DNA of 64,000 bases from Malania oleifera. Lineage: Eukaryota > Streptophyta > Magnoliopsida > Santalales > Ximeniaceae. The position numbers and the translations under genes are program-made. Under the pieces are notes generated by a model. The model worked only from the letters and a program-made list of their open reading frames with translations. It ran no database searches and was not told the DNA's origin. Of the stretch, positions 2,310 through 62,116 are shown piece after piece. The stretch covers positions 65,509,101 to 65,573,100 of the forward strand of contig NC_080428.1 in the NCBI RefSeq assembly GCF_029873635.1. The letters are read 5' to 3'. Numbering within the stretch: position 1 is the stretch's first letter; each line of letters starts with the position of its first letter.

Positions 2310-3986
2310 TCCTCCTCCTCTCTCTCCCTCGCCCTCCTTCCTCCTCTCCTCCTCAGTTCTCTCCCCTCCTCTCCTCCTCTGCACGTCCGTCTATCTCTCG
2401 CCTCCCTCTTCCTCCTCCTCCCCGTTACGTTCCCCTCGGTCCCTCCAAGAAATCATCCCGCTCAGCGGCCCCCCGCACTCCCCTTCAATGCAGTCTCGGC
2501 GTCGTCCTGTCTGCCCACCTCTCTCCTCTGCATCTCAGCCGGTCTCCTGGCTATCTATATATCGCCCCCCCCAACTCCTTTCCCCGCTCAGACCTCTCGC
2601 TCCGTCACCGCTCCTCTTACTCCAGGAGGAGGCCACAGGGAGTCCCAGCGCCCGTCCAGAACATTCCTCACCAGTCCTCCCCATCTCGGGAAAACTCCCA
2701 ACACTGTCCTCAGAGATAAACTCTCCACAGCGAGGCTCTCGTCACGCTTCCGGAAATCGCCGCCTGCCCCTAAAACCCAGTCCCCCCTATGGCTCGGGAA
2801 GAAGATCTTCTGCAATCGCTCAGATTCTCTCCTCGAAGAGGCCACAATGCTCGACGAGGCCACAGATCTCTCCACTCAAGGCCTCAGAGTCGTCCACCTC
2901 TATCTCGCGCACTCATTTCTCTCTCTGCCGTCCCACCCCGTCTCTCCGGTCTCAGCACTCAGCCAATCTCACTCTCTCCTCTCTCCCCGCTCACACCTCT
3001 CTCGAATCCGGCTCCTCGTCAATCCATTAGATCGGCTCCTCTCTCTCAAAAGCGCACGCTATACATCCTCCGGGCGGCGGAAAGCCCCAGAATGGTCGCG
3101 GGCGAGGACTCCCGTCCCACTCAAATCTCTCGACTCCAGCAAGCCTCGGCGCTCACATCTCATCGGGGGCACGGGCCACCCTCGGCTCCACGTCAATAAA
3201 CGCTCTTCCACTCTGCAATCACATCACCGCGACGGCGCCAACACTCATCCACTCCCCTCCCTTCCAGCATCCCCCGAGACCCGTGTGGCTCGGAGTTAAG
3301 AGACGACGCGCACGAGGTCCCTCTGCCTCAACACATCGTCTCACTCCGATCCACAGGGAGGGGAGCTTGCGACGCACGTCCGCTCCTCCGAGACCTAGCA
3401 AAGGGGAAGTCAGGTAAGAGGGGAGCCAAAAAGTCGTCAGCCAACGAATCGCAACCTCCTGCGCTGTGGCTAAAACGTCTCGCTACCGACCCGTGCAAAG
3501 ATTTTCCCTCAAAGTCCAACTCTCCGTCGGACCATCGGAAGGGCTCCCAAGCACCAACCGATCGCCCACAGTGGGAAACCAAAGGAAGGTGATCCAGGTC
3601 AATCACGGTCACTGATCATCTGAGCACTCTCTGCGCTCCCTCCTCCTCCGCACCATCCGGCGTTAGCTCTCGCGGACCAAGTCATCACAAAGCCCAGAGA
3701 CCTCTCAAAGCTCTCCGCCAGCTCCAGTCTTCCCTAGTCGATGGGTACTCGCGATCTCGCTCAACCCGAACGGTCACAGACTCGCTCCATGTCCAGGGAC
3801 TCCTCTCGCAGCCAAGGTCGATCTCACATACACACCAGGCCAGGGCCTGCCATGCCGTCTCTCCCTCAACAGGCCATCCCCGAAGCTAGTCCTGGCTGTG
3901 GCTAGCCAAGTCCTACCTATCTCCATCGCCAGCTCTGGAGCCTCCTACCTCAACGATCGTCCCTCGTCATCGTCTCTCCTCTCCCA
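2310..3986. other. GC- and pyrimidine-rich block inside the E 5' LTR
   Basis: The 3' LTR has a plain CT tract at this site (24246-24274). The 5' LTR instead has CT tract, then about 1.7 kb of C-rich, CpG-containing DNA, then CT tract again. Composition is far from the AT-rich neighbours. Open frames of 136-180 codons exist in several overlapping frames on both strands, are Ser/Pro/Arg-rich and look like by-products of composition. I do not recognise the sequence. Confidence 0.6.
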
Positions 3987-4154
3987 TCTCTCTCTCTCTC
4001 TCTCTCTGATTTTGGCTTTGTTAAAGCCCATTTTAACGTTCGAGAACTACCACGAGGTTTGTGGGGAAATTCTCTACATGTGACAACCCGAATAGTAATG
4101 GTATTTAAATAATAGAAAGGAAAGGAAATGGAAACAGAAATAGTAGGAGGCAGC

Positions 4155-4372
4155 AGACTTCGTTGACGACAATGCATTTTGGGAATAATAATCGAGGGAG
4201 ATTATCAGGGCCTCGTCGATGAACATAGGGGATTTGTTGACGAGAAGATACCGAGAGAGAATTTCTGGAAATCTGAAATTCATCGACAAGGGAGCAGGCT
4301 CGTCGACGAACTTTCTACAGGACTCGTTGATGAGGTGACGTGTCTCGTCGATGAATCCGGACCTATAAATAG
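4155..4372 (+). promoter_or_regulatory. TCGTCGACGA array and TATA box in G1
   Basis: Seven degenerate copies of the palindrome occur near 4158, 4204, 4226, 4280, 4300, 4323 and 4344, followed by CTATAAATAG at 4363-4372. A CT-rich tract follows near 4415-4450. Confidence 0.6.
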
Positions 4373-4887
4373 TGCAAAAACTCATATTTAAGCATAAAAT
4401 AAGAAATCCTCACACACTCTCTCTCCCCCTTCAATTTCTCTCTCCTCTCTCTTCGATTCCGGCTCTGTCGCTCACCGGATCGACGATCTGAGGCCACCAC
4501 TATGCTCCTGGAAAAGTTCTCTGCATATCTGCCGGAGCGGATCGTCGGTGGAACTCCGTTGAAAATCATCCCTGAGTTGAGGTAAGGATTTTTATGCCGA
4601 ATTTGGTCTTACTATAGTTATACGAAATGATATACACGTGAAAATACTGAAGTTTAGAACTGAGAGTTTTCATTTTCAGGGAGTTGATCAGGAAATCCTA
4701 CGGGTGTGAGTTTAGGAATACATAGGGGCTTTTTAGTTGCCAGGTAAGGGAATAAACTAAAGTAGTTATTTTTCATGCAAATTATTATTATGTATGAGTA
4801 AATTTATTTTCAGGAAAGCATGTATTATATATGTATATTACAAAGGAAATGCACGTTGGGAAAATATTGCTATTATGTTGAAATGTG

Positions 4888-5030
4888 TGTGTATATATAT
4901 ATATATGTATGTATATATATATATATATGTATGTATGTATATATGTATATATGTATGTATGTATATATGTATATATGTATGTATGTATATATGTATATGT
5001 ATGTATGTATATATATATGTATGTATGTAT
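4888..5030. repeat. TATG/TA microsatellite
   Basis: Alternating (TA)n and (TATG)n runs lie within the G1 LTR. The corresponding part of G2 (10360-10385) has only a short remnant, so this is a copy-specific expansion. Confidence 0.85.
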
Positions 5031-5235
5031 GAGATGCCAAAAATTATGATTTTAAGAATTCAATGTATGGCTTTATATAGCAAATGTGTGACATGAATAT
5101 TACTTTATGTGAAATGTATCACGATAGGACTTTGTTACGAATGAAGCATGTTTTCAGGAATATGAAATGTTACAGTACAAATGATGTTGAAAATGCATGA
5201 TAATTGAATTATTTTCAGAATGATATATATTTATG

Positions 5236-5450
5236 AAATGTCCAGCGCGAGGCCGTATATATGAAATGATTTCGGCGTGAGGCCATATTTATGAAATGTT
5301 CGGCGCGAGGCCGTATTTATGAAATGTTCGGCGCGAGGCCGTATATATGAAATGATTTTGGCACGAGGTCGTATTTATGAAATGTTCGGCGCGAGACCGT
5401 ATATATGAAATTATTTCAGCGCGAGGCCGTATTTATGAAATGATGAAAAA
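5236..5450 (+). repeat. Minisatellite of about 31 bp, CGGCGCGAGGCCGTA units
   Basis: About seven tandem units read roughly TATGAAATG, TTCGGCGCGAGGCCG, TATT. A shorter unit version is at 10600-10735 in G2. The minisatellite lies in the large segment between the second donor-like site (4744) and the conserved 3' blocks. Confidence 0.85.
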
Positions 5451-5558
5451 TGTTATAATATCATGTATTATATGTTATCAGAACCTGGATGTTAGTTTAG
5501 TTCAGTTCAGGAGCTTAGTACCGTAACTTATAGGTCAGATATCTATGATCAGATTGGT

Positions 5559-7271
5559 TGTCACGCCTTGAACCTGCAGGTGGGTCCCAGGTGTGAATTT
5601 GAGTAATATAACCTGTCTCTGTATCAATTTAAACATACATGATACCATACAAATAGAGGGTCCAACCCCGTGGGGTGAACGGATGCCCACATACATACAC
5701 ACGAACATCCATATTCATCCAAAATACGCAGCGGAATATAGTCTTTTATACATAAACAGTATCATACTAGAGTCTATACAAGTTAGGATATACATCCCCA
5801 TAATACAAAACATACCCCAGGTGTCTACAAACTATCCCGACAACCTGGATACCAAAACTCGTACCTAATAGGTACTAGCAGTAGCTACGACACCCTTGCT
5901 CCTAGACATTAGGATGCTACTTACGGTTACTTGAGGGACTTGAAAAACATTGTATGTAAATTCAGGGTGAGACACCTTTCAGTAAGGAAGAAAACATGTT
6001 ATATCAGTGTGTGGCATACCAATGTTATTTTACATATTTCATAACACTATAAAAGATACGATACAGTTTGAAACATTTCCATACTGTTTCATACATAAAC
6101 ATACAGTTCCATACAATTCCAGTATTTTCACAAAAACCATTCCAGTACATACGATACCCAAAACATATGGAAAGTGTCATAACACTAGTTCGCAACTACA
6201 CAAGGTCACCTCATCTCACAGCAATTATATTGCTACATACACAACTACGTTGCGACGACCGAGGCCCAATAGTGATTACATTGCTCCATACGTAACTACA
6301 CAAGGTCACCTAGTCTCACAGCGATTACATTACTACACACGCAACTACGAAGCGACGAATCGGGCCCACAGTGATTACATTGCTACATACGCAACTATAC
6401 AAGGTCACCTCACAATGATTACATTGCCACATGCACAACTACGTTGCAACGACCTAGGCCTACAGTGATTACATTGCTATATACGATGTAGAACACACCC
6501 TTCGGTGACCAGCCGAAACATACTGGTGATATTTCACACCCTGGATATAGAGCCGGCCACTCTCGCCCACGGTAGTTAACCGATACATGGCTATTTTACA
6601 AATCCCTGGAATCATTTTGGAACTCACGTTCCTATACATTTCAGCATACGGTAATTAGTAGCCACATAGCTATTTTATAATTACCTGGAACAAATACATG
6701 CATCCATACATACCACACTTATTTGGTTTATGAAAAATCATATCAATTTCAAGTATACAGTTTATGCAAATATGGATTACGGTTACCTTAATAGTACAAT
6801 TTTAACATAACCAACAGTTTCCAAAACAAAGTAGAGATGATACCAAAAATCCCCAATTTTTCCTAAAAGCTGTAACCCAAAAATCTTGTATTTTTACCTG
6901 ATAGATTTCCCCAAATAAGTAGCCAAAACATACATACGATCGTAGCCTACAGGCTTACCGATCCTGATTTTGAAAATGAACTGATATAAACAGAATCCCC
7001 TTACCTTTCCCCGAATTCCAACTACGAACTTTACGGTCCCCAAAACTACGAACCGAGACTCCAAAATCTACAAACCACAGTACAGTACATGCTTACAATC
7101 TATACTACTACACATATACCGAATCAGAAATGAAAACCAAGTCTTACCTTGATTTTAGCCCAAAACCTGAAATCCTCCGAAACGTGATTCCGATCCGCTA
7201 GAAACGTAGAGAATCCTTTTCTGATCCTCGCAGTATCATTGGATTTACGAACCGGGTAACGATCGGAAAAG

Positions 7272-9488: not shown

Positions 9489-11614
9489 TGTAACGACCCA
9501 AATTTAAAATGGAATTTGAATAATTAAGAGGGAGAGAAATAGAAACAGAAACAGAAGGAGGCCATAGACTTCGTCGACGACATTGCATTTTGGAAGGAAA
9601 AGAAGGGGGAATGGAAACAAAAATAAAGAAGGAAGCTGCCAAGCTTCGTCGACAAACATAGGGTTTCGTCGACGAAGGCTTTAAGGATTTTGTCGACGAA
9701 CACAGGACCTCGTCGATGAGAAAATACCGAGATGGGGGTTTTGAGCCGACTGAATTTTGTCGACGAAGGCTGGATTTCATCGACGAAATTTATGAAGAAC
9801 TCATCGACGAAGATCGAGCTCGTCGATGAATTCTGCTATCTATATTTATGAAAAATCCAAATTTTAAACGTCATTTGAAGCTTCCTCTCCACTCTCTCTC
9901 TCTCCTATTTGGTCCTCTCACTCTCTCTCTTCAATTTTGGGCTAGTTTTACGCCGGATCGAAGATCTGAGGCTACCACGACGCTCCTGGCGAAGTTCTCT
10001 ACAAGTTTGCCGGAGCGGATCGTTGGGGAAACGAAGTAGGAAATCATCCCAGAGTTGAGGTAAGGCTTTTTAAGCCAAATTAGACTTTATGGTAGTTATA
10101 GAAATTGATGTATGCATGAAAATACTGATGTTTGGTACTGGGGGTTTTGAGTTTCAGGGTGTTGATCAGGAAGTCATACGGGGGTTAGCCTAGGATATTT
10201 TGGGGGCTTTCTCAGTAGCCAGGTAAGGGAATAAACTAAAACAGTTATTTTCCATGCATGTTATTATTAATTATGAGCACATTTATTTTTAGAAAAGCCT
10301 ATGTTATCTTTGGATATTACATATGAAATGTATGTTTGGAAAATACTGCTATTATGATAAAAATGTATATGTATGTATGAGATGCCAGAAATGATGATTT
10401 TAGAATATGAAGCATGACTTTAAACGGCATATGTGTGGCATGAATATTATTTTTATGTGAAGTGAATCATGATATGAAGAATTTTACGATCAAAGCATAT
10501 TTTCAGGTATTTTGAAAAGACGAGTTATGTTATACTGAGTTTGACGAATATATGAAAAATGAGTTATTTTCATAATGTAAATACCTGAAACGTATTTATG
10601 TTATTGGCACGAGGCCATGTATTTATATTATCGGCACGAGGCCGTATTTACGATTTTGGCATGAGGCCATGTATTTATGATTTCGGCACGAGGCCGTATC
10701 TATGTTTTCGGCACGAGGCCGTGATGATGTTATGTATGTTCATGTATTATATGTTATTACAACCGGGATGTTAGTTTAGTTCAGTTCAGGGCTCGGTACC
10801 GTAGCTATATGTGTAGATCAGATATCTACGTCAGATTAGTGCTAACCATCCCATGAGGGGATGGGATATGGATAGTCGATGTGGCTTTCAGTAGAGTGTG
10901 GATGTCCACCTGGCAGTCTGGACCAGGGTGTGGTAGGCCCATCGTACTTACAGACATATTTGATTCGGCAGTGGTCGGCCAGCCATTGTTGGGTCCCGTC
11001 TCAAGCTGCACAACCCGTCATGGGGGGTAATACATGACACCAGCTAGCTATTCATCCTGGGTATATTCTCAGTATTACAGTTATAATAGATGCTTATGTG
11101 TGTTATGATTTATTAGCAAATATGAAAGTACATGATTATCCAGTATGATATTACGATTATTTCCAGAGTTATGAAATGTACTATATATGTATAAGCACTT
11201 TAAATGTTCATGTTGCCACACAACTGTATTTAGTTTATTTTCCCTTACTGAGAAGTGTCTCACCCCCAACATTAACATATTTTTCAGGAAACCCAGAGAA
11301 ACCGGCGGATCAAGGCTGCCATTGAGTGAGTGGAGCTTCCCTACTAGGAGGGTAAGCATTGAACTAGGACTAGGAGATTTTTTGTTGTATGGTCCTAGTG
11401 TTGTTTTTGATTTTTGGAGATTGTACATATAAATAGTATATTGATGATGTAGTAAACTTTGGTATTATGTTTTATGTTTGGATGTTGAGATTTTATGTTT
11501 ACTGCTGCTAGGTTTTCCGCTGTGTTTGACAGTTTTTCCCGCTACCCACGAGTTCGGGTTGACCATTTTATCTATTATGTGACATTTTATATTTAGAAAT
11601 TGAGGGACGTTACA
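9489..11614 (+). mobile_element. Family G solo LTR (G2) inside H pol
   Basis: Starts TGTAACGACCC, ends GGGACGTTACA, about 2.1 kb, with TSD TGCGC (9484-9488) and TGTGC (11615-11619), one transition apart. The uninterrupted pol of element N at about 58583-58590 shows the empty site. It carries the palindrome array (9570-9830), CT tract, donor-like sites GGTAAGG (GT at 10060) and AGGTAAGG (GT at 10223), minisatellite (10600-10735), the conserved ACTGAG/GTCTCACC block (11247-11265) and the acceptor-like TTTTCAG (11281-11287). Confidence 0.9.
10600..10735 (+). repeat. Minisatellite, GGCACGAGGCCGTATTTATG units
   Basis: Five to six units lie at the same LTR position as the array at 5236-5450 in G1, with a slightly different unit. 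Confidence 0.8.
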
Positions 11615-14946: not shown

Positions 14947-16962
14947 TGTCACGCCCTGAACCCACAGGTGGGTCCCAGGTGTGAATTTGAGTAACCTAAC
15001 CTGTCTCTGTATCAATTTAAACATACATGATACCATACAAATAGAGGGTCCGACCCCGTGGGGTGAACGGATGCCCACATACATACACACAAAAATCCAT
15101 ACTCATCCAAAATATGCAGCGGAATACAATATTTTATACATAAACAATGTCATACCAGAGTCTATACAAGCTAGGATATACATCCCCATAATACAAAACG
15201 TACCCCAGGTGTCTACAAACTATCCCGACAACCTGGATACCAAAACTCGTACCTAATAGGTACTAGCAGTAGCTACGATGCCCTTGCTCCCAGATGCTAG
15301 GATGCTACTTACGGCTACTCGAGGGACCTGAAAACATTGTACGTACATTCAGGATGAGACACCTCTCAGTGAGGAAGAAAACAGGCTATATTAGTGTGTG
15401 GCGTACCAGTGTTATTTTACATACTTCATAACACTATAAAAGATACGATACATTTTGAAACATTTCCATACTGTTTCATACATAAACATACAGTTCTATA
15501 CAGTTCCAGTATTTTCACAAAAACCATTCCAGTACATATGATACCCAAAACATACGGTCAGTGTCGTCACACTAGTTCGCAACTACACAAGGTCACCTCG
15601 TCTCAGAGAGATTACATTGCTACATACGCAACTACGCTGTGACGACCAAGGCCCAATAGTGATTACATTGCTCCATACGCAACTACACAAGGTCACCTAG
15701 TCTCACAGCGATTACAATACTACACACGCAACTACGAAGCGACGACTCAGGCCCACAGTGATTACATTGTTACATACGCAACTACACAAGGTCACCTAGT
15801 CTTATAACGATTACATTGCCACATGCACAACTATGCTGCGACGACCTAGGCCTACAATGATTACATTGCTACATACGGTGTAGAACACACCCTTTAGTGA
15901 CCAGCCGGAACATACTGGTGATATTTCACACCCCAGATATAGAGCCGGCCACTCTCGCCCACGGTAGTTAACCGATACATGGCTGTTTTACAAATCCCTG
16001 GAATCATTTTGGAACTCACGTTCTTATACATTTCAGCGTACGGTAATTAGCCGCCACATAGCTGTTTTACAATTACCTGGAACAAATACATACATCTATA
16101 CATACCATACTTATTTGGTTTACGACAAATCATATCAATTTCAAGTATACAGTTTATGCAAATATGGATTACGGTCACCTCAATAGTACAATTTTAACAA
16201 AACCAACAGTTTCCAAAACAAAGTAGAAATGATACCTGAAATCCCCAATTTTTCCCGAAAGCTGTAACCTAAAAATCTCGTATTTTTACCCGATAGATTT
16301 TCCCAAATAAGTATCCAAAACATACATACGATCGTAGCCTGTAGGCTTACCGATCTTGATTTTGAAAATGAATTGTTATAAACAGAATCCCCTTACCTTT
16401 CCCTGAATTCCAACTATGAACTTTACGGTCCCCAAAACTACGAATCGAGACTCCAAAACCTACAAACCACAGTACAGTACATGCTTACAATCCGTACTAC
16501 TACACATATACCAAATCAGAAATGAAAATCGAGCCTTACCTCAAATTTAGCCTGAAACCCAAAATCCTCTGAAACGAGATTCTGATCCGCTAGAAACGTA
16601 GAGAATCCTTTCCTGATCCTCATAGTATCATTGAATTTACGAACCGGGTTTTGATCGGTAAAGAAAACTAGAGAGAGAGAGAGAATGTGTGTGTGTGTGT
16701 GTGTTTGGGGAAACTTAGCCCTAAAGCAACCCAAAATATCCTTTTATAGCACCTTTGACCCGAGGGGATTCGTCGACGAATTGAGGTCCTCGTCGACGAA
16801 TCGACAGTCTTGTCGACGAGCCAGATATTTCACATTTTTCCTGAACCCCTCGTCGACGAGAAGTCTTCAGCCTTCGTCGATGGATAATTAACCCCTATGC
16901 AAATTCCATTTTTACCCCTCTTTTACATACTTAACCCCTATATCATGGTTCGGGTTCTTACA
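14947..16962 (-). repeat. 5' LTR of element H
   Basis: Plus-strand ends are TGTCACGCCC and GGGTTCTTACA. It aligns with 5559-7660 throughout, with scattered transitions. The palindrome array (16766-16885) is shorter than in the partner LTR because one stretch is missing. Confidence 0.9.
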
Positions 16963-17133: not shown

Positions 17134-18354
17134 CACAACCCGTCATGGGGGTAATACATGACATCAGCTAACTATTCATCCTAGGTATGTTTTCAATATT
17201 ATCATTTATAACATATGTTTTATGTATGATATGATTTATTAGCAAATATGAAAGTATGTGATGATTCAGTACGATATGATGAACGTTTATAGAAATATGA
17301 AATGTATTGTATATGTATAATTGCCTTAAATATTCATGTTGCCACGCAACTGTATTTAGCTTATTTTCCCTTATTGAGAAGTGTCTCACCCCCAAACATT
17401 TAATGATTTTCAAGAAACCCAGAGAAATCGGCGAGTCAGGGCCGCCGTTGAGTGAGTTGAGCTTCCCTACTAAAGGGGTAAGCGTTGGTATAGGATCAAG
17501 GGATTTTTGTTGCATTATCCTGGGGTTATTTTGATGGTTTGGAGGTTGCATATAAATACAGTATTTTGATGATGTAGTAAACTCTGGTATTATGTTTTAT
17601 GGTTGGATGGTTGTAATTTTATACTTACTGCTGCTTAGGTTTCCGATGTGATTGACAGGTGTCCCCGTTACCCACGGGTTCAGGTTGACTCTTCTATTTA
17701 TTATGTTTCATTTTATATTTAGATTTTTGAAGTCGTTACACTACAACTTAGGCAGAGCGGATTGTTGGTTTGGAGTTCTTGGGCACCACTCCAAAATCAG
17801 GGTAAGTAAAGTAATTTAAGGTTTAATGGGCTATTTGATGTATTCGAAACCAAGGAAGTGCTAAATGAGAATTGTTTTGGGAATTGAGTCGATTAATTTG
17901 GGGAAATGTGAATTTCAAGCTTTTGAGTTGCGAACGTTATGGAGTGTAAGATCTAGGGTGTTAGTGGACCTCTCAGTAAGCCAGGTAAAGGGAATAAATT
18001 ATAACAGTCATTTTGAGAATTTCTAGTTGAATTAATACATGAAAATGAGAATATGATATTTTGTCTAATATTATTATGATATGAATATCAAATAAAATCG
18101 TGTGGCATATGAGTAATACTGAATTGTGATGTTTTGGAATATGAAATATGAGTATAGAAATTTTTTCTATGATAAATGGGGAAATATGAGAATATGCTAT
18201 GTTTTATTGAAAAATGTGGAAATTCACGAAATGAAAAATATATACTATTATGAGAATGAAATATGTACTGAAAAGATGGGAAAGAAATAGAAAATGGGAA
18301 GAATGTTGAAATGTGATATATACCATTATGAGATGATATATGAATACAAAAGAT

Positions 18355-18829: not shown

Positions 18830-19762
18830 CACAACCTCAACCGTGGGGAGAAGCATGGCGTGGAGAATATCCTCAGGGCAGCCGTGAGTTACAAACGTCA
18901 CATGGATTGGTTATCGAGGACACTCATGAGCTAGATGTGAAATAGAAATGAGAAATGAAAGAGTGTGAGTTTAATAACATAAATAATCAGGGCGAAGTAC
19001 AACTCTCCGTCTGAGGGCTTATTGAGTAAGAAGAGTGCCCTGATAAGTATTAATTGTAGCCTCACCCAAATTAATCAGGCAAGTTTACAAATGATATTAG
19101 AGTAGAGGGGAGTTACATGTATAGGCGTGTAATCTCCCCTATGCTCGGGAACTTTCGCTAATAAATATGGGTTGCATGTGAATAAGTTTGAAAAATGGAA
19201 TTAAAGCTTATGAAAGCTTTTTTTTTTTTATATATATAAATGATTATGAGTATAATTAGTATATTTTTCTTAGATGATATTATCACTGAAATGAGAACAT
19301 TATGATATAACGAAACTTTTACTACCACACATTGTAAATAATTTATTTCGTCTTACTGAGATGTGTCTCACCCAAATATCTAAATATTTCAGGGAACCGT
19401 ATCAGACCAGAAGATAGAGCTCCGAGATAGAGGGAAGTTGGTACCCTAATAGACAGGGTGAGTATTTTCAGCTAGGGATGTATGATTCCCCTAGAGTTTT
19501 TGATTGGTTTTGGGAATGTGTTTAGACATGTATATATGTACAAATGGTTAGAACTCTAGTTATTTGTGTTCTGGATGATTTGTAATTATTGACTTCCATT
19601 GTTAGTGTTGTTTATATAAGTTTGACTGATTACTCGGTACCCGTTTCGAGCCGGGTTATGCTGATATGGTATCAGAGATTCTGACGTGGTCGATGTTTGA
19701 GTATTATCGATTAATATTTATTTATTAAAGAAAAAATGGTATGAAAATTGGGGCGTCATAGT

Positions 19763-22122: not shown

Positions 22123-23890
22123 AAACTCTCCCTACTCCTTCTCTTCAGATTCCTTCACCGATCATTGCTAGAATCGGGAAATGGAAGTTACCACAAGGAT
22201 CGTGGAAGGATTCTCTATAACTTCTATGGATCAGAATCTCGTTTCGAGTGTTTTCGGGTTTCGGACTAAAATCGAGGTAAGGCTTGGTTTTCATTTCTAA
22301 TTTGGTATATGTATAGTAGTACAAATTGTAAGTATGTTTTGTACTATGGTTTGTAGGTTTCGGGATCTCGGTTCGTAGTTTTGAGGACTGTAGAGTTCGT
22401 AGTTGGTTTTCGGGTTAAGGTAAGGGGATTCTGTTTATATCAGTCCATTTTTGAAATCAAGATCGGTAAGCCTGTAGGCTACAATCATATGTATGTTTTG
22501 GATACTTATTTGGGGAAATCTATCAGGTAAAAATGCGAAATTTTAGGGTTACAGTTTTCGAGAAAATTGGGGATTTCGGGTATCATCTCTACTTTGTTTG
22601 GAAAACTGTTGGTTGCATTAAAACTGTATTATTGAGGTGACTGTAATCCATATTTTCATAAACTGTATACTTGAATTTGCAAACGATATGATTTTCCTTA
22701 AACCAAATAAGTGTGGTATTATTGTATGTATGTATGTATTTTGTTCCAAATATTTGTGAAACAGTTATGTGGCGGCTAATTACCGTATGCTGAAATGTAT
22801 AGGAACGTGAGTTCCAAAATGAATCCAAGAGTTTGTAAAATAGCCATGTATCGGTTAATTACAGTGGGCAAGAGTGGCCGGCTCTATATCCGGGGTGTGA
22901 AATATCACCAGTATGTTTTGTCTGGTCACCGAAGGGTGTGTTCTACACCGTATGTAGCAATGGATTCACAATGGGCCTAGGTTGTCGCAGCGTAGTTGTA
23001 CATGTGGCAATGTAATTGGGGTGAGACTAGGTGACCTTGTGTTGTTGCGTATGTAGCAATGGATTCACTATTAGGCCTGAGTCGTAGATTTTCGTAGTTG
23101 CATGTGTAGTAATGTAATCACTGTGAGATTAGGTGACCTTGTGTAGTTGCGTATGAGGCAATGGATTCACCATTGGGCCTTGATCGTCGCAGCGTAGTTG
23201 CGTATGTAGCAATGTAATCGCTGTGAGACGAGGTGATCTAGTGTAGTTGCGAACTCGTGTGACGACACTAACCGTATGTATGTATGTATGTATGTATGTA
23301 TGTTGGGTATCGTATGCACGGGAATGGTTTTCTGAAAATATTGGAACTGTATGGAATTGTATGAAACTGTACGAATTGTTTCAAACTGTATCGTATGTAT
23401 AGTGTTATGAAGTATGTAAAATGACACCGGTATGCCACACACTGATATAAATTGTTTTCTTCCTTACTGAGAGGTGTCTCACCCCGAATGTACGTACAAT
23501 ATTTTCAGGGCCTTCAGGTTGCGGTAAGTAGCATCCTAGCATCTGAAAGCAAGGGGTGTTGTAACTATTGGTATTACCTTTTAGGTACGAGTTTTGGTAT
23601 CCAGGTTGTGAGTATAGTTTTGTGGACACCTGGAGTATGTGTTGTAATTATGGGAATGTATATCCTAGTTGTATAGACTTTGGTATGATATTGTTATTGT
23701 ATAAAAGACCGTATTTCGCTGCGTATTATGGATGAGAATGGATGATTGTGTGTATGTATGTAGGCATCCGTTTACCCCACGGGGTCAGACTCCCTTTATG
23801 TATTGTATCATGTATGTTTAAATTGATACAGAGACAGGTTAGGTTACTTAAACTCACCCCCGGGTCCCATTTCCGGGTTCGGGTGTGACA
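21757..23890 (+). mobile_element. Family B solo LTR in the E polypurine tract
   Basis: Starts TGTAAGAACATGAACC, ends TTCGGGTGTGACA, with perfect TSD GGGAT (21752-21756 and 23891-23895). Removing it restores the purine run AAGGAGGGGATAA directly before the E 3' LTR. It carries the palindrome array (about 21826-22010), TATAAA (22035-22040), CT tract (22082-22121), donor GGTAAGG (GT at 22277), the 63-nt AG/GT-bounded segment (22357-22419), a tandem array of AAGTACG/AGCAATG-type units (22955-23270), and the ACTGAG/GTCTCACC block (23466-23484). Confidence 0.9.
22082..22121. repeat. (CT)n tract downstream of LTR TATA box
   Basis: Perfect CT run about 45 bp downstream of TATAAA. CT tracts occupy the same place in the E, G and B LTRs and may lie in the transcribed leader. 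Confidence 0.85.
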
Positions 23891-24280: not shown

Positions 24281-24768
24281 TTGGCTTCGTTAAAGCCCAT
24301 TTTGACGATCAGGAACCGCCACAAGGTTCGTGGGGAAATTCTTTTCAACTTAGTCGGAGCGGATTGTTGGTTTTGAGTTCTTAGGCACCACTTCAAAATC
24401 AGGGTAAGTAAAGTATTTTAGGGTTTAATGGGCTAGTTGAAGTATTCGAAACCTAGGAAGTGCTAAATGAGAATTGTTCTGGAAATTGAGTTGATTAATT
24501 TTGGGAAATATGAATTTCAGGTTTTTGAGCCGCGAATGCCATGGAGCGTAGGATTTAGAGTGTTAGTGGACCTCTCAGTAAGTCAGGTAAAGGAAATAAA
24601 TTATAACAGTCATCTTGAGAATTTCTAGTTGAATTAATACGTGAAAATGAGAATATGATATTTTGTCTGAAATTATTATGATATGAATATTAGATAAAAT
24701 TGTGTTGCATATGAGTAATAACGAATTGTGATATTATGGAATATGAAATATGATTATAGAAATGTTTT

Positions 24769-26843
24769 TGTTGACTTTTTGAGTCTGATCCTGTTTTGAT
24801 AATGATAAAACACAATTATCTCATCTGTGCATTGAGCTTTTTTCGCAGGATCATTATTTAGCACACACGGATGATACAAATACTATGGAAGCCATGAGAA
24901 ACTTGAAGCGCATACGACTTGACATATTCCATGAAATTAAAATAGCAAAAGGATGAAGATATCTCAGATTTTCAGTTGTAATGTGTGTTTAGTCCTACTT
25001 GTATTTACATATTTCATAAGATATAATTGAGAGCTCAAATATGACCTTAGATTGACCATAGGACCTCCAAGTAACATGAAAAACCTTTTTCATAAAATTC
25101 CTAACTTATATAAATGTTTTAAAATGGTTTTGAAGTTAAAAGAAGACAAAAACTAATTTTTACAAAGGGGTTAGTTGACCGTCCAGCCGACCAAACAATA
25201 TAAATAAGAATTTTTATCAATCTATAACTTCTTATCCTAATAAGTCTTCAACATGAAAGTTATGGAATTTTCTCTTATCTTTCTGTTGATACTAGGAATG
25301 TCCAATTTGGAATCATATAGAAAAAGTTATGGCCAAAACACTTAAAGGTGTACGTAGCGTAAAAATTCCCTTCATGTTTCTTAAGTCACATTGATGGACA
25401 TTTTTATTGATCCATAACTTCTTATACTAAAATGTGTTCAACATAAAAGTTGTGGAATTTTCTCTTAGTTTCCTGTTGACACCAAGAAAGTCCAATTTTG
25501 AGTTCTATAGTAAAAGTTATGTCCAAAATACTGAAGGTTACTCACGTAGAACATCGGTTCAACGCGAATACGTGCTGAATTTTCTTGATTAAATTGATCT
25601 GACGGCCAGAACTTAACCTAAGGCTGAGAACACCTTTAAATATGACCTCTAACCCTAGAGCATGAGTTTTTGCCTACCTCTTGAGAGTTTTGAACAGATT
25701 GCCAAACTTTTGCATAATTTGCCTACACTCTATCAAGTTCAAACACCTTTTAGGCATTTTCTCAGTTTTACAAAGGGCATTCACACACACATCTTGCTAG
25801 GACGTTTGATATTGAGGTTTGGTATACAATGTTTTATATTTGGGAATTTAATCTTCATTGTAAAAGTTTTTCTTCTCTTATATTTTTATTTAATATTTTG
25901 TTGAGAGAGCAAGAACCTTAAGTTTTATATTTTTGTTTAAAAATTCTTGTGGGAAAAGTTCATTCTAGGACTTTAAAATTTTTGAAACATTCTTGATATT
26001 ATTTTTATTCAAAAATTTAATATTGTTTTATTCGTACCAAAAGTTATTTGAGAAAACCCTAAATCTCCAACACATATTATTTGAAAAATAATTTTTTGGA
26101 GATATTTGCATTGGGTGTAAATCTTTGAGAAAACTCACTATACATATTTTTATATACAAAGATCATATATTTGATTATTATTGAAATCATCACATATATT
26201 CATTGAACTTCAAGTTATATCCTATGAATGTGTTTTAGGAATTTTATTGTACTCATTAGCTTGTTCAGAAGCATCAGAGTGTTCATGAATTTTATCAATC
26301 TATTGTATTAACGGTTTGGGTTGTGAACTGGGGAGGAGGAAGTTGTGCCTCTTGTAAACAACGGAGTAGAAGGAAGTTGTGCCTCTTGTAAGCAGCGGAG
26401 TAGGAGGAAGCTACTCCTATTATAATCAGTGATTTGTAACAGGAAGCTCCATCCAGGTTTAAGGAACAGATTAGTGGAATCCTTGGGTGTTTTGCCCAAG
26501 ACGAGGACATAGGCCGGGTTTGGCCAAACCTCGTTAAAAATTTGGTGTTTGCGCTCTCTCTCTATCCCTCTTTATATTTCCGCACTTATATTCATATTAT
26601 ACCTGTTGTGCATGCTTTAAATATTCATATATATGAATATCTAAAATACGTGAGAATAATTGGGTAATACTTAATTAATTGAGATATCCATTGATTAAAT
26701 TAATTAAGTTATATAATACTGAAATCGGTGAATATCCAAGTTTGTTCTTGTATGTTTGGATTTTCAATTAAGGATTGAAGTACCAAAATATTTTTAAATA
26801 CCCAATTCACCCCCCTCCTCTTGGGATTACACCTAAATTAACA
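24769..26843 (+). mobile_element. Copia-type solo LTR (SIRE-like)
   Basis: Starts TGTTGACTTTTTGAG and ends CACCTAAATTAACA, with perfect TSD GTTTT (24764-24768 and 26844-26848). The empty site is seen in the E 5' LTR at about 18160. The start resembles SIRE/Maximus LTRs (TGTTGAC...GTTTTGATAATGATAA), and the 3' end has the CAATTCACCCCCCTC motif common to that group. No coding region. Tandemly related segments occur at 25200-25340 and 25390-25530 (both contain 'taacttcttat' and 'gtccaatttt'). Confidence 0.8.
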
Positions 26844-27435
26844 GTTTTCTATGATAAATGGGAAAATATGAGAATATAATATGTTTTATTGAGAAATGTA
26901 GAAATTCGTGAAATGAAATATATATATATATATATATATGTATATATTATTATGAAAATGAAATGTGTATTGAAAAGATGGGAAAGAAACAGAAAACAAA
27001 GAGAATGTTGAAATGTGATATATATCATTATGAGATGAGATATGAATACTGAAAATGTGAATATGGGAATGTGAATGTTGTAATGTGAATATTGCAATTG
27101 TGAAAGTTGAAATGTGAATACTGGAATGTGAATATGGATATGTGAATATTGCAATGTGAATGCTGCAATATGAATACTAAAATGTGAATAATGAAATGTG
27201 GAAATGAGAACCTTGATGGATGGTTGTTGATATAGAGTATGGTACCATTGCTAGTAAGGTATTAGTGCAACCACACGGTCTCGTGGAGAGTTTGGCATGA
27301 CAGTTGATTGGGCCTTTGGAGAGATGTTAACTGCCCCTGGGTCCGGACCAGGCTGCGGTAGGCCAATCGTACTATAGAATGACAGGTAGAGTTCTTATTT
27401 TGATCTAATCGGGTCAGCCAACCGTGGTTTAGATC

Positions 27436-27449: not shown

Positions 27450-29005
27450 CACAACCTCGACCATGGGAGGAAGCATAGCGTGGAGAATATCCTCAGGGCA
27501 ATCATGAGTTACGAACGTCACATGGATTGGTTACCGAGGACACTCATGAGTTAGATGTGAAATGGAAATGAGAAATGAAAGAGCGTGAGTTTAATAACAT
27601 AAATAATCAGGGCGAAATAAAACTTTCCGCCTGAGGGTTTAATGAATAAGGTGAGTGCCCTGATAAGTATCAGTTGTAGCCTCACCCGAGTAAATCAAGC
27701 AAGGTTACAAACGATATCAAAGTAAAGGAGAGCTACTTGTATGGGCGTGTAATCTCCCCATATCCTCGGAAACTTTCGCTGATAAATATGGGTTGCATGT
27801 GAATGAGTTTGAAAAATGGAATTAAAGTTTATAAAAGCTTGTGTTTTATATCTATATGATTATGAGTATGATTGGTATATTTTTCTTAGATGGTATTATC
27901 ATTGAAATGAGAATATTATGATATAACGAAACTCTTACTGCCACACACTGTAAATAATTTATTCCATCTTATTGAGATGTGTCTCACCCAAATATCTAGA
28001 TATTTCAGCGAACCATTTCAGACCAGGAGATAGAGCTCCGAGATAAAGGGGAGCTGGTACCCTGATAGACAGGGTGAGTATTTTGAGTTAGGAATGTATG
28101 ATTCCCCTAGAGTTTTTGATTGATTTTGGGAATGTGTTTAGACATATATATATATACAGATGGTTAGAACTCTAGTTATTTGTATTCTGGATGATTTGTA
28201 ATTATTGATATATGCTGTTAGGGTTGTTTATATAAGTTTGAATGATTATCTAGTACCAGTTTCGAGTCGGGTTATGCTGATACGGTATCAGAGATTCTGA
28301 CATGGCCAATGTTGGAGTATTATCGATTAATATTTATTTATTGGAGAAAAAATGGTATGAAAATAGGGGCGTCACATCCATCCTATACCTCCCATCACAA
28401 ACTCATCTCTAGCCCATTCTATGTTCATTCCTTTATTTAAAAAAAAATTTATAATTTCACTCCTCCCCCCACACTTTTATAAATTCCATTTTCTTCTCCA
28501 AATTTTTCTTAAAAATAGGAAACTCTCAACATTTATTTTTCACAAAAAAAATTCCAAAGGAAAAGAATGATTAGTGAGTGAAAGAGTTAGTAGTGGAGGG
28601 AGAATTTTTGTTATACTTCAAATTTTTACTCACCCACTCTTTCTGATCTCATTTTCCAAGATATTTGTTGTAAGCGTCTCATAAGGTTAAGTAAGGGTAA
28701 GTAAATTTAATTATGTTATATTTTTATTAAATTTTATACCAGAATTTATTTGTAAGTAAATTTGATTATGTTAGTTTTTTATTAAAATTTATACCCGATT
28801 TTATTTGTAAGTAAATTTTGATTATGTTAGTTATTTTTTATAAAAAAATTTTAAGTTTATTTTTATACATATTTAATTATACCAATTTTATCTTTAATAT
28901 ATATTTGCATTTATTTTTGAGTTAAGAAATATTCTAAACCCCTCGAGTATTTTACAGCATTAATTTCTATTCAAAAAAATATTTTTAACACGAAAATCGT
29001 GTGAC

Positions 29006-53370: not shown

Positions 53371-55213
53371 TGTAAGAACCCGAACTGTGATATGTGGGTT
53401 TAAATAATAAAGAGAAAGGTAAAATTTGAAATTTGAGCAGGCTTCATCGACGAAGCCAGATTTCATTGACGAAGGCTTTGTTCTGCTCGTCGACGAAGTT
53501 CAGAGGTCCGTCAATGAGAAGAAGCCAAGAGATTTTAGGAAACTAGGGATCTCAGGCTCATCGACGAGGTCACTGTCTCGTCGACGAACTGACTATATGG
53601 TCTCATTGATGAGGTCACCATTCGTCGACGAGGGCAGCCAGGTCAAAGGTGCTATAAAAGATATTTTGGGTTGCTTAGTTGCTAAGTTAGCAACTTTTCT
53701 CTCCCTCTCTCTCTAGAACTTGAAGGGCACTCTCTCTCTCTCTAGATTTCTTCATCGTTCATCGTCTGATTCGATAATCTGACGTTACCACGAGGATTAG
53801 GGAAGGATTCTCTACAAAACCTACGGATCGGAATCTCGTTTCGGAGATTTTTGGATTTCGACTTAAAATCATGGTAAGGCTCGGTTTTCTTTTCTGATCC
53901 GATAGTTTGGTAGATGACAAAGTCATGAGTATTTTCTATACTATGTTTTGTAGATTTTGAGAACTCAGTTCGCTGTTTAGGAGCCGTAGAGTTCGGGATT
54001 GGTATTTTGGGGGAAAGGTAAGGGAATACAATTTATATTGGTTATTTTTGAAATCGAACTCAGTAGAACGGTGGTTCATGGTCCTATGTGCGTTTTGGTT
54101 ACTCATTTGGGGGAATCTGACAGGTAAAATTATGAGTTCAGTTTTGGGAAAAAGGGGGTATTGGGTTGCATCCCTGGTTTTGTTGAAAATCGTTGGTATA
54201 TTGTGATTTATATTAGGTATTAGGGATGGCCATGCCTTGACTTTGTTTTAAACTGTGTATGATTGGAAACCATGATTTTCAAATTACCAAATGAGTGTGG
54301 TATGTTTGGTTATATGAGCATGCATGAATGTGTTATGTTGAAATGCAATAGGAACTGGGTTCTGAATTGTTCCAGGTACTAAAAGAGTGTCCGGCTCTAT
54401 ATCCGAGGGCGTGTGTTTATCACTTGCTATGTTGGCAAGAATGTCTGACTCTATATTTGAGGGCGTGAGCCTATACCAAATGATCACCGAAGGGTGTAGA
54501 TCCACCAGTTAGCACCGATATGATGCCATGGGAGTCTGGGACAAGCCATGTGCCAGTGGCGCCATGTTTCGCAGGTTGGCTACGAGCCAACGCCGTATAT
54601 TGCAGATCGGCTACGGGCCAAGGGGTGTGACGACACTGTGTAGATCATGGGCATGCGTATGCGTGTGTGTGCGTGTATGCACTGTACTTAAACTGTATTG
54701 TGAGAATACTAGAATTGCATTAACTGTGTTTATTTGCTGTCATGATAACACTCGAATGTCACACACTAATATAACCCCGTGTTTGCCTTACTGATATGTG
54801 CCTCACTCCTGCTGTACGTATATTTTTACAAGTCCTTCGAGTAACCGAAACTAGCATCCTAGAGTTGGGAGCATAGTGGCCGGTGTACTGCGGGTAACGC
54901 TTGTGTAAGTGCTAGGACTTTTGTTTCGCGAGTTGCCATTTTGGGGTATGTTGGCACATGGATGTAAGTTTTGTATGTATAGAGCCAGGACTCTGTTTTG
55001 TTTTGTATAGACTTTGGTATGGTACAGTACATATATAGAATGACCTTTTTCGCTGTATATATGATTTGTGTATGGATGCGTATAGGGTGCCTAGTAACCC
55101 CAAGGGGTCGGACCCTCATTCATTATGTTGTATCGTTGTTATTTGTATAATATGGGGACATGCTAGGTTACTAATTCACCCTTGGGTCCCATTTCCGGGT
55201 TCAGGACGTGACA
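53371..55213 (+). repeat. 5' LTR of element N
   Basis: TGTAAGAACCCGAAC to GGACGTGACA. Palindrome array at 53445-53640, TATAAA 53653-53658, CT tracts 53700-53745, donor GGTAAGG (GT at 53875), 64-nt segment 53954-54017, GTAAGGG (GT at 54018), and the ACTGA/GCCTCACTCC block near 54789-54808. Confidence 0.93.
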
Positions 55214-55215
55214 GC

Positions 55216-55232
55216 TTGGTATTAGAGCTAAC
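55216..55232 (+). other. Primer-binding site of element N
   Basis: TTGGTATTAGAGCTAAC lies two bases after the LTR. It matches the initiator Met-tRNA complement apart from C to T. Confidence 0.88.
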
Positions 55233-55541
55233 TAGGTGGCTAGGTCTTGTAGACTTGGTTAGGTGTAGCTATGTGTACATACCAGAGTATAAGAGGAAGG
55301 AAATGGGTAGAGTAGGTCGAGGGTTGTTTTGTTGCTAGACAAGTATTCGTTGGTGGTGTTCTGTGTTTTTCCTGGAATGACGATTCCAGTAAAATCAGGG
55401 CAAACCATTGATGACTTTCGCATCAATGTGATAGGACAGACCTAGACTTGTGAGAGGGTAGTTAACATGATTGTGTGTGTTAATTATTGTGTTAACTGTC
55501 TGTGATATAGGAGTCCTAATCGATCCCTATTCTGTTTCAGA

Positions 55542-56580
55542 ATGGAGCCCAAGGATAATAACTTGGGGAGTGGTTCTGAGGAGACTGCCAGCGACGAGTC
55601 TCCGTCAGTGCCTTGGGGTTTGACGAGGCAGGTTATGCGAAAAATCGGGCAGAGTGTCAAGGGACGCGAACGCTCTCCTACTACTGCGGGGTGTACAATC
55701 GAGAGGTTCACACGCATGCACACGCCGACGTTTGTAGGGGGACCCGACCCCATTAGAGTGGAGGACTGGGTCGAGAGGACCGAGAGGATTCTAGAAGTCC
55801 TCCACTATATAGATGAGTAGAGAGTCTTATACGCTACCTTCCAGCTGTCTGGGGACGTGGGGCATTGGTGGACTATTGTGAATCTGTTGGAAAAGCAAAG
55901 AGCCAGTGTTTCGGAGATGTTTTGGAGCCATTTCAAGGAGGTGTTCTTTAAGATATACTTCCCGGCCTCCATTCGTGATGCGAAGGTAGACAAGTTTTCT
56001 GCTCTGTGGCAAGGAGATATGACGGTGCAGGGGTATGCTACTCGGTATATAGAGTTATCCCGCTTTGCGCCGTTTCTGATCTCGAGAGAGTATGAGAAGA
56101 CTCGGAGGTTCAAGAAGGGTTCGAGGAAGGATATCCACAGATTGGTGGGTATGCTTCAGATTTGCGAGTTTTCAATTTTGGTAGACAAGGTCATGGTGAT
56201 CGAGACCGGCATCTGAGAGGATGAGGTGGATCAAGAATCGAAGAAGAGGACAGTACCTTCTGGTTCTCAGTCGGGATCTCGTTAGGGATCGTGGAAGAAG
56301 AGGAACAAGGGCTTGGCTTACCATCAGAATACCGAGTTCCAGAGTACTCATGTGAGTTAGACGAAGATCGTTGTACCAAGTGCCTCAGATGGCACGAGGG
56401 CGAGTGCCGATCATTTGGGGTAACTGCTACAACTGTGGTCGGACAAGCCACATGGCTCGCGACTTTCATGCATTGAAGAGAGATATGCCTGCATCTAGTG
56501 TGAACTGGGGTGGTAATCAGATACCTCAGGGAACCATTTAGATGAATATAGCTCCAGCCAAAGTATACTCTCTTACTCCA
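55542..56580 (+). pseudogene. Gag region of element N (interrupted)
   Basis: ATG at 55542 (MEPKDNNLGSGSEE) lies one base after TTCTGTTTCAG (55530-55540). Gag core motifs are EDWVERTERIL, WSHFKEVFFKIYF and SRFAPFLIS. Stops include TAG at 55818-55820, where H has a Gln-like codon, and TGA at 56214, explained by CGA to TGA. The zinc-knuckle part (about 56370-56470) is present but out of frame. It aligns with H gag from its first codon. Confidence 0.85.
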
Positions 56581-60260: not shown

Positions 60261-62111
60261 TGTAAGAACCCGAACTGTGATATGTGGGTTTAAATAATAA
60301 AGAGAAGGGTAAAATTTGAAATTTGAGCAAGCTTCGTCGACGAAGCCAGATTTCGTCGACGAAGGCTTTGTTATGCTCGTTGACGAAGTTCAGAGGCTCG
60401 TCAACAAGGAGAAGCCGAGAGATTTCAGGAAATCGGGGATCTCAGGCTCATCAACAAGGTCACTGTCTCATCGAAAAACTGACTATATGGTCTCGTCGAT
60501 GACGTCGCCATTCGTCGACGAGGGCAGTCGGGTCAAAGGTGCTATAAAAGATATTTTGGGTTGCTTAGTTGCTAAGTTAGCAACTTTTCTCTCCCTCTCT
60601 CTCTAAAACTTGAAGGGCACTATCTCTCTATCTAGATTTCTTTGCCATTCATCGTCTAATTCATTAATCTGACGTTACCACGAGGATCGGGGAAGGATTC
60701 TCTACAAAACCTATGGATCTGAATCCCGTTTCGGAATTTTTGGGTTTCAGCTTAAAATCGAGGTAAGGCTCGATTTTCTTTTCTGATCAGGTAGTTTGGT
60801 AGAGGACGGAGTCGTGAGTATTTTTTATACTGTGTTTTGTAGATTTTGAGAGCTGAGTTCGTTGTTTAAGAGCCGTAGAGTTCGAGATTGGCTTTTAGGG
60901 GAAAGGTAAGGGAATACAGTTTATATTGGTTATTTTTGAAATCGAACTAGGTAGAATGGTGGTTCACGGTCCTGTGTGTGTTTTGGTTACTCATTTGGGG
61001 AAATATAACGGTTAAAATTATGGGTTTTTCATGTTACAGTTTTGGAAAAAATGGGGTATTGGGTTGCATCCCTGGTTTTGTTGAAAACCGTTGGTATATT
61101 GTGATTTATACTGGGTATTAGGGATGGTCATGCCTTGACTTTGTTTTAAACTGTGTATGATTGGTAAACATGATTTTCGGATTACCAAATGAGTGTGGTA
61201 TGTTTGGTTATATGAGCATACATGAATGTGTTATGTTGAAATGCAATAGGAACTGGGATCTAAATTATTCAAGGTACTGAAAGAGTGTCCGACTCTATAT
61301 CTGAGGGTGTGTGTTTATCGCCTACCATGTTGGCAAAAGTGTCTAGCTCTATATCTGAGGGCGTGAGCCTATACCGGTTGATCACCGAAGGGTGTGGATC
61401 CACCAGTTAGCATCGGTATGATGCCATGGGAGTCTGGGACTAGTCATGTGCCGATGGGGTTGTGTTTCGCAGGTTGGCTATGAGCCAACGACGTATGTTG
61501 CAGACCGACTACTGGCCAAGGGGGTGTGACAACACCGTGTAGATCATGGGCGTGCGTATGCGTGTGTGTGCGTATATGCACTGTACTGGAACTATATTGT
61601 GAGAATACTGGAATTGCATTAACTGTGTTTATTTGCTGTCATGAGAACACTCGAATGCCACACACTAATATAACATGTGTTTGCCTTATTAAGATGTGTC
61701 TCACCCCTGGTGTACGTATATTTTTACAAGTCCTTCGAGTAACCGGAACTAGCATCCTAGAGTTGGGAGCGTAGTGGCCATTGTACTGCGGGTAGCACTT
61801 ATGTAAGTGCTAGGACTTTTGTTTCGCGGGTTGCCGTTTTGGGGTATGTTGGCACTCGGATGTACGTTTTGTATGTATGGAGCCAGGACTCCGTTTTGTT
61901 TTGTATAGACTCTGGTATGGTACAGTACATGTATAGAATGACCTTTTCCGCTATGTATATGATTTGTGTATGGATGCGTATAGGGTGCCTGGTAACCCCA
62001 CGGGGTCGAACCCTCATTCATTATGCTGTATCGTTGTTATTTGTATGATACACGGACATGTTAGGTTACTAATTCACCCCTAGGTCCCATTTTCGGGTTC
62101 GAGGCGTGGCA
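60261..62111 (+). repeat. 3' LTR of element N
   Basis: TGTAAGAACCCGAAC to GAGGCGTGGCA. It aligns with 53371-55213 end to end with scattered, mainly transition differences. Palindrome array 60333-60530, TATAAA 60543-60548, donor GT 60763, 63-nt segment 60843-60905, GTAAGGG (GT at 60906). Confidence 0.93.
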
Positions 62112-62116
62112 GACAG

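Follow-up and report, generated by a model that had tools for sequence, protein, structure and literature searches.

The window, by which we mean the whole 64,000-nt stretch of DNA analyzed here, is a nest of LTR elements. Element N (53371 to ~62112, + strand) has both LTRs. Its 5′ LTR (53371-55213, + strand) was delimited by self-comparison with 60261-62112; it has TG...CA ends and is followed by the primer-binding site (PBS; 55217-55228, + strand), TGGTATTAGAGC, which we take to be tRNA-iMet-like. Element H lies on the − strand, also with both LTRs (16962-14947 and 7660-5559). B, G1, and G2 were read as solo LTRs, and element E is damaged; its 3′ LTR is interrupted by ~2 kb at 24768-26845. 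Profile matches placed the domains of N in Ty3/gypsy order (Retrotrans_gag, RVP_2, Integrase_H2C2, and SH3_Tf2-1), with the gag domain at 55821-56216, and the reading frames were interrupted by stops. With its LTR pair, PBS, and order of gag, protease, and integrase, N is a Ty3/gypsy LTR retrotransposon. The Chromo profile, representing the C-terminal chromodomain of Tekay/Del-like chromoviruses, scored 18.0 bits in N and 17.5 bits in H against a curated cut-off of 25.1. A tRNA scan of the 64,000-nt window found no tRNA, and an Rfam match to SCARNA7 at 54218-54382, obtained when 53371-55620 was scanned, was set aside as probably due to chance (27.7 bits vs a gathering score of 65; E = 0.00042). 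A repeated TTCGTCGACGA-like motif was also seen 5′ of the TATA box in N (53440-53640), with equivalents in the H, B, E, and G LTRs.

Splice-site layout in the window LTRs

The first-pass annotation had read a leader RNA with splice sites into these LTRs. The GGTAAG donor that it placed 3′ of a CT tract was present in all nine LTRs of the window, and so was the succession of an acceptor, a segment of near-constant length, and a second donor, the acceptor of the E 5′ LTR (E5) having decayed from CAG to CAA as reported. In N (all + strand; slashes mark exon boundaries), transcription would start ~30 nt downstream of a TATAAAA box (53653-53659), so that the 5′ end of putative exon 1, the CT-rich leader (53685-53873), depends on the position of that box. 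Alignment and site scores delimit putative intron 1 (53874-53953, 80 nt; ATG/GTAAGG ... TTTTGTAG/AT), and site scores delimit putative exon 2 (53954-54017, 64 nt). A putative intron 2 of 1523 nt (54018-55540; AAG/GTAAGG to TTCTGTTTCAG) may be used after it.

The same arrangement was located in the N 3′ LTR (N3; 60763-60905, + strand; donor 1 at 60763, intron 1, exon 2 at 60843-60905), in the H 5′ LTR by site scores (H5; 16397-16539, − strand; donor 1 at 16539, intron 1, exon 2 at 16459-16397, donor 2 at 16396), and in the H 3′ LTR (7005-7147, − strand; intron 1, exon 2 at 7067-7005). On the + strand, it was found with intron 1 and exon 2 in the solo LTRs of B (22277-22419; exon 2 at 22357-22419), G1 (4582-4743; exon 2 at 4680-4743), and G2 (10060-10222; intron 1 of 98 nt, exon 2 at 10158-10222). 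The E 5′ LTR (17802-17984, + strand) has donor 1 at 17802, the decayed acceptor, and an exon 2 that ends before donor 2 at 17985, and the E 3′ LTR (E3; 24404-24586, + strand) has donor 1 at 24404 and exon 2 at 24521-24586. Two donor coordinates differ from those first given, for the GT of N5 (the N 5′ LTR) occupies 53874-53875, of which the T had been listed, and that of E3 is at 24404 rather than 24414; the layout itself stood. The reported segment lengths agreed with ours (N5, 64; N3, 63; B, 63; H, 63; G1, 64; G2, 65; E3, 66 nt), and the distance from donor 1 to the acceptor, put at ~80-110 nt, was found to be 80-117 nt in the nine LTRs. The term "micro-exon" was loose for a segment of 62-68 nt; it is better described as a small, apparently noncoding exon, with lengths that are not confined to multiples of three.

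A second such segment had been proposed for E and G. It was recovered as scored sites on the + strand in G2 (11288-11351, donor AGG/GTAAGC at 11352) and in the E 5′ LTR (19393-19457, donor AGG/GTGAGT at 19458); the segments at 17414-17477 and 28009-28073 were read off only, and the acceptor at 17414 (G1) is CAA instead of CAG. Signals for a third exon in the N/B/H group were weak. At 23524, B has a strong donor-like GCG/GTAAGT near TTTTCAG, possibly belonging to a third, very short exon in that group. In another G LTR (L131, a C7 copy), tandem repeats with a unit like TATTTATGTATGATTTCGGCACGAGGCCG lie 3′ of donor 2.

The layout exceeds what coincidence would give. Sites were scored in leaders of ~2 kb with a simple plant splice matrix. 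Donors 1 and 2 were the two best-scoring donors in the leaders of N5, H5, G2, and B and ranked 1 and 3 in that of E5. The acceptors ranked lower than the donors, the N5 exon-2 acceptor being 7th in its leader. The putative introns have the GT-AG borders of spliceosomal introns, and both borders lie in a suitable sequence context.

Site constancy, the gag acceptor, and upstream ATGs

Nineteen LTR rows, comprising the nine window LTRs and ten copies from 200 kb of flanks, were compared. Donor-1 GGTAAG was kept in 17 rows (lost in 13k and 97k) and donor-2 GGTAA in 18 (87k still has GT); the exon-2 acceptor AG was lost in E5, 87k, and 93k. The genome (1.49 Gb in 510 contigs, of which at least C1-C13 are chromosome-sized) was then searched, with 3756 to 6980 first-look places per family query, all candidates rather than confirmed copies. 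Leaders were fetched from the best 40 places per search (20 each for N, G, and H and 15 for E), and the sample is therefore biased toward similar copies. In the four families N, H, G, and E together, 83 leaders have the layout. When the four references are set aside, 79 best-match leaders remain; among these, the donor-1 GT was kept in 21/21 N, 21/21 H, 19/21 G, and 16/16 E leaders, the exon-2 acceptor AG in 20/21, 21/21, 18/21, and 13/16, and the donor-2 GT in 20/21, 21/21, 21/21, and 16/16, respectively.

Retention within a family was rejected as proof, since each leader had between 4 and 19 further GT or AG dinucleotides whose retention equaled or exceeded that of donor 1. The splice dinucleotides lie in the better-kept part of the leader yet are unexceptional there, as is expected of dead copies. 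Between subfamilies, the result was different. Among five N/B/H representatives, 15 of 15 site columns were invariant vs 171 of 342 other columns, and 15 of 352 six-column windows were as constant as the donors; among eight E/G representatives, the corresponding values were 11 of 15 vs 34 of 261, and 4 of 271. This comparison omitted six of the 19 rows, namely the near-duplicates N5, 64k, H5, E5, and 93k and the decayed 13k. Few strings match the donors in constancy between subfamilies. The expectation that GT and AG would vary less than other bases was thus borne out between subfamilies but not distinctly so within single families, and the case for site constancy is carried by the between-family comparison, not by decaying copies alone.

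A further acceptor abuts gag. In N, the first base of the putative gag exon and the gag ATG occupy 55541-55544 (ATG, 55542-55544, + strand), and in H, they occupy 14627-14624 (ATG, 14626-14624, − strand), so that the ATG begins 1 nt after the acceptor TTCTGTTTCAG. The acceptor is pyrimidine-rich in both elements (TATTCTGTTTCAG/A ATG), and CTAAC or CTAAT, presumably a branch-point-like motif, lies ~20 nt upstream. The corresponding sequence is TATTTTCAG/G ATG in the E family (L128) and TTTTCAG or CTTTCAG/G ATG in the G family (L129, L130, -7.6k, and C7). Its AG is present in N5. Of 20 N copies, which came from 40 places, 16 have kept it and four have lost it, as have L126 and 138k. L127, fetched as an E leader, had no recognizable leader or gag and was dropped. 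With an acceptor 1 nt before the gag ATG, the last putative intron would span what remains of U5 together with the PBS and a GAC-loop hairpin. This pattern of acceptor and ATG suggests that the RNA may be spliced over the last intron to gag. A genome pattern search for the exon 2/gag junction gave 0 matches; RNA spliced to gag would lack the PBS and should leave no usual copies, so this zero neither supports nor refutes such splicing.

The hairpin, with a GACG loop in N, lies between the PBS and gag (55368-55393, + strand). It was found in 10 leaders of several families, which were picked because the motif had been seen, and none of these leaders forms fewer than 10 of the 11 pairs; equivalents lie in L126, L128, L129, L130, and L134. 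The loop of the 10 leaders is GACG in five, GACA in four, and GACT in one, and the hairpin lies 145-213 nt 3′ of the PBS. Among 20 PBS-like places in 264 kb, six had the hairpin, two of these sharing a single one, and many of the remaining places look like other elements or chance matches. Of 2000 shuffled leaders, 4 contained a hairpin of this kind. No covariation was seen among the 10 leaders, and arms swapped between elements paired equally (10.18 vs 10.20 of 11). As the leaders are related and swapped arms pair equally, the shuffle figure does not demonstrate selection on the structure. The hairpin may have a role in packaging.

The exons proposed here are poor in ATGs. Between the presumed transcription start and gag, N5 has 52 ATGs, 51 in putative introns and one in exons, and H5 has 60, 58 in putative introns and two in exons. 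Summed over the 83 leaders, among which members of one family do not count as independent, the exon-1 part held 48 ATGs in 10,312 nt and exon 2 held 14 in 5340 nt (11 of the 14 in E), compared with 199 in 7663 nt of intron 1 and 331 in 11,299 nt after donor 2. Intron 1 of N is itself ATG-poor, with 9.1 per kb vs 23.1 in the shuffle.

These features bear on the purpose of splicing. The introns might be spliced for intron-mediated enhancement of expression or export, with all productive transcripts spliced and rare unspliced RNA tolerated as the genome. In plants, introns that enhance expression are typically short first introns near the transcription start, and such a purpose would fit the constancy of the sites. 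However, enhancement requires neither a last intron that ends at the gag ATG and contains the PBS nor a concentration of upstream ATGs in introns, and we consider this explanation unlikely.

G-family copies lacking intron 1

A 30-nt joined-exon pattern of the G family gave two matches in the genome, and its reversed control gave none. A wider junction pattern gave 38 matches; the four with 0-2 mismatches are exon junctions, and the other 34, with three mismatches, resemble the ordinary acceptor, all six that were fetched holding intron sequence. The four junctions belong to three elements, named here after their contigs, C7 (both LTRs), C13 (one LTR), and C10 (one LTR). In each, intron 1 is missing exactly, from GT to AG, and exon 2 and donor 2 have been retained. 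In C7, 7.09 kb separate the two junctions, which share a strand and belong to LTRs that are mutual closest relatives (92%, support 0.983); the PBS, the hairpin, and the gag acceptor follow the 5′ LTR, and a purine-rich stretch precedes the 3′ LTR. An element without intron 1 in either LTR is what the copying of a spliced RNA would be expected to produce. Precise removal of an intron is seen in genomic copies for intron 1 of the G family only, and the rarity of such copies fits unspliced RNA as the usual template.

The tree placed C13 within the G2 clade (92%) and C7 beside the intron-bearing L141. C10 fell in a larger clade with C7, with intron-bearing copies between them, and the separating node had a support of 0.091; two losses of intron 1 are therefore sure and three likely. 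An anchored search for exon 1 and exon 2 separated by 0-30 nt (deletions of ~81-111 nt) returned one place, C13, with the exact junction; both anchors are carried by 14 of 22 G copies.

These losses weigh against the idea that the donor-like sites act by binding U1 snRNP, which would prevent premature polyadenylation within the 5′ LTR while the RNA is hardly spliced. Strong U1-like sites do lie near the start in the scored families, and retroviruses provide a precedent for U1 at donor sites suppressing polyadenylation; but the acceptors and the near-fixed exon length would then be superfluous, and precise GT-to-AG losses exist, which makes this reading highly improbable. We give the least credence to an origin of the intron-1-less copies by microhomology deletion without any splicing, the conserved strings being promoter or other DNA elements: AGG is shared by both sides of the G junction, so such a deletion could yield the same product, only three intron-less elements stand among 6980 first-look candidate places (unconfirmed as copies), and a G-related leader, L140 (one of the six fetched copies), has a deletion that runs from the CT tract to beyond donor 1 and is no splice product, but at least two losses on separate branches have identical ends, the one place in the anchored search was exact with no other deletion of similar size, and the gag acceptor is conserved in families that differ elsewhere. 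The N-family exon 1/exon 2 junction, with 0 genome matches although 18 of 22 N copies would match if spliced, also favors deletion; an exact pattern for unspliced N that allowed a variable gap gave six matches.

Taken with the acceptor abutting the gag ATG, the precise intron-1-less copies support the proposal of the first-pass annotation that the leader RNA is spliced. For intron 1 of the G family, splicing is supported by these copies about as strongly as DNA evidence allows, and the shared layout suggests that the leaders of N, B, H, and E would be spliced as well.

Proposed roles of spliced and unspliced RNA

The site layout, its constancy between families, the ATG-poor exons, and the precise intron-1-less G copies are present in the DNA. 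On this sequence evidence, several related Ty3/gypsy families probably have a genuine multi-intron leader, in which spliced RNA would serve as the Gag-Pol messenger and unspliced RNA as the genome. Transcription would begin downstream of the TATA box, and exon 1 would be joined over the short intron 1 (80-118 nt) to the small exon 2 (62-68 nt), perhaps with a third exon included in E and G. The long last intron would then be removed up to the acceptor 1 nt before the gag ATG. The resulting RNA would be without the PBS, the GAC-loop hairpin, and nearly all upstream ATGs, and it would thus be a Gag-Pol messenger that could not be copied. The unspliced RNA, with PBS and hairpin, would be the genome for copying.

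Plant LTR elements are generally without introns, with exceptions including Ogre and EVADE, according to PMC12786077. In the barley Ty1/copia element BARE1, the translated and copied RNAs form separate pools, and the spliced RNA is translated (PMC3735527). Separate pools are likewise proposed here, but the BARE1 intron, of 104 nt, lies near the end of gag, whereas the putative introns described here are found 5′ of gag, within the LTR and leader. Partial or alternative splicing is described for Ogre (Tat) and EVADE (copia) in PMC12786077 and PMC6317226. The Ogre intron divides gag-pro from the RT-RH-INT frame, and the EVADE intron removes the protease domain, both unlike introns of an LTR and leader. 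Bagy2 and CRR are cited as spliced as well, rice CRR through PMC3735527. In the passages cited, none of these elements has LTR introns that reach to the gag ATG, and no report of such a layout was found among the open-licence full texts searched. The main text of PMC3059260 contains none of the words splic, intron, and leader.

The leaders resemble those of retroviruses, in which a donor lies upstream of the packaging signal, in having the PBS and GAC-loop hairpin where splicing would remove them. Retroviral gag is made from unspliced RNA. The acceptor abuts gag in the present elements, so gag would come from spliced RNA, unlike in retroviruses. GACG loops contribute to the RNA dimers of MuLV and RD-114 (PMC5874298), and the gammaretroviral type of packaging signal has a pair of GACG-loop hairpins; one hairpin was sought per leader here. 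The leaders of CaMV and RTBV are rich in upstream ORFs and have a splice donor and a Met-tRNA primer site (PMC5902531). The present leaders are similar in being ATG-rich with a donor and a Met-tRNA-type primer site. Unlike these elements, CaMV and RTBV are pararetroviruses without LTRs; the CaMV acceptor lies in ORF II, and RTBV splicing joins a leader upstream ORF to ORF IV.

A wider reading is put forward tentatively and is rather doubtful at present, namely that these families represent an intron-bearing LTR and leader group widespread among plant Ty3/gypsy elements, in which the spliced RNA, freed of the PBS, the hairpin, and upstream ATGs, would be the gag-pol messenger, the unspliced genome would be translationally silent, and the hairpin would be a packaging or dimer signal convergent with that of gammaretroviruses.

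The balance between translation and copying of one LTR-retrotransposon RNA is a major question, as stated in PMC3735527. If leader splicing decides the fate of the RNA, this balance would be directly testable in an abundant plant group, with 3756 to 6980 first-look candidates per query. Introns of this kind would also mean strong plant splice sites at very many loci, where solo LTRs could supply host genes with exons.
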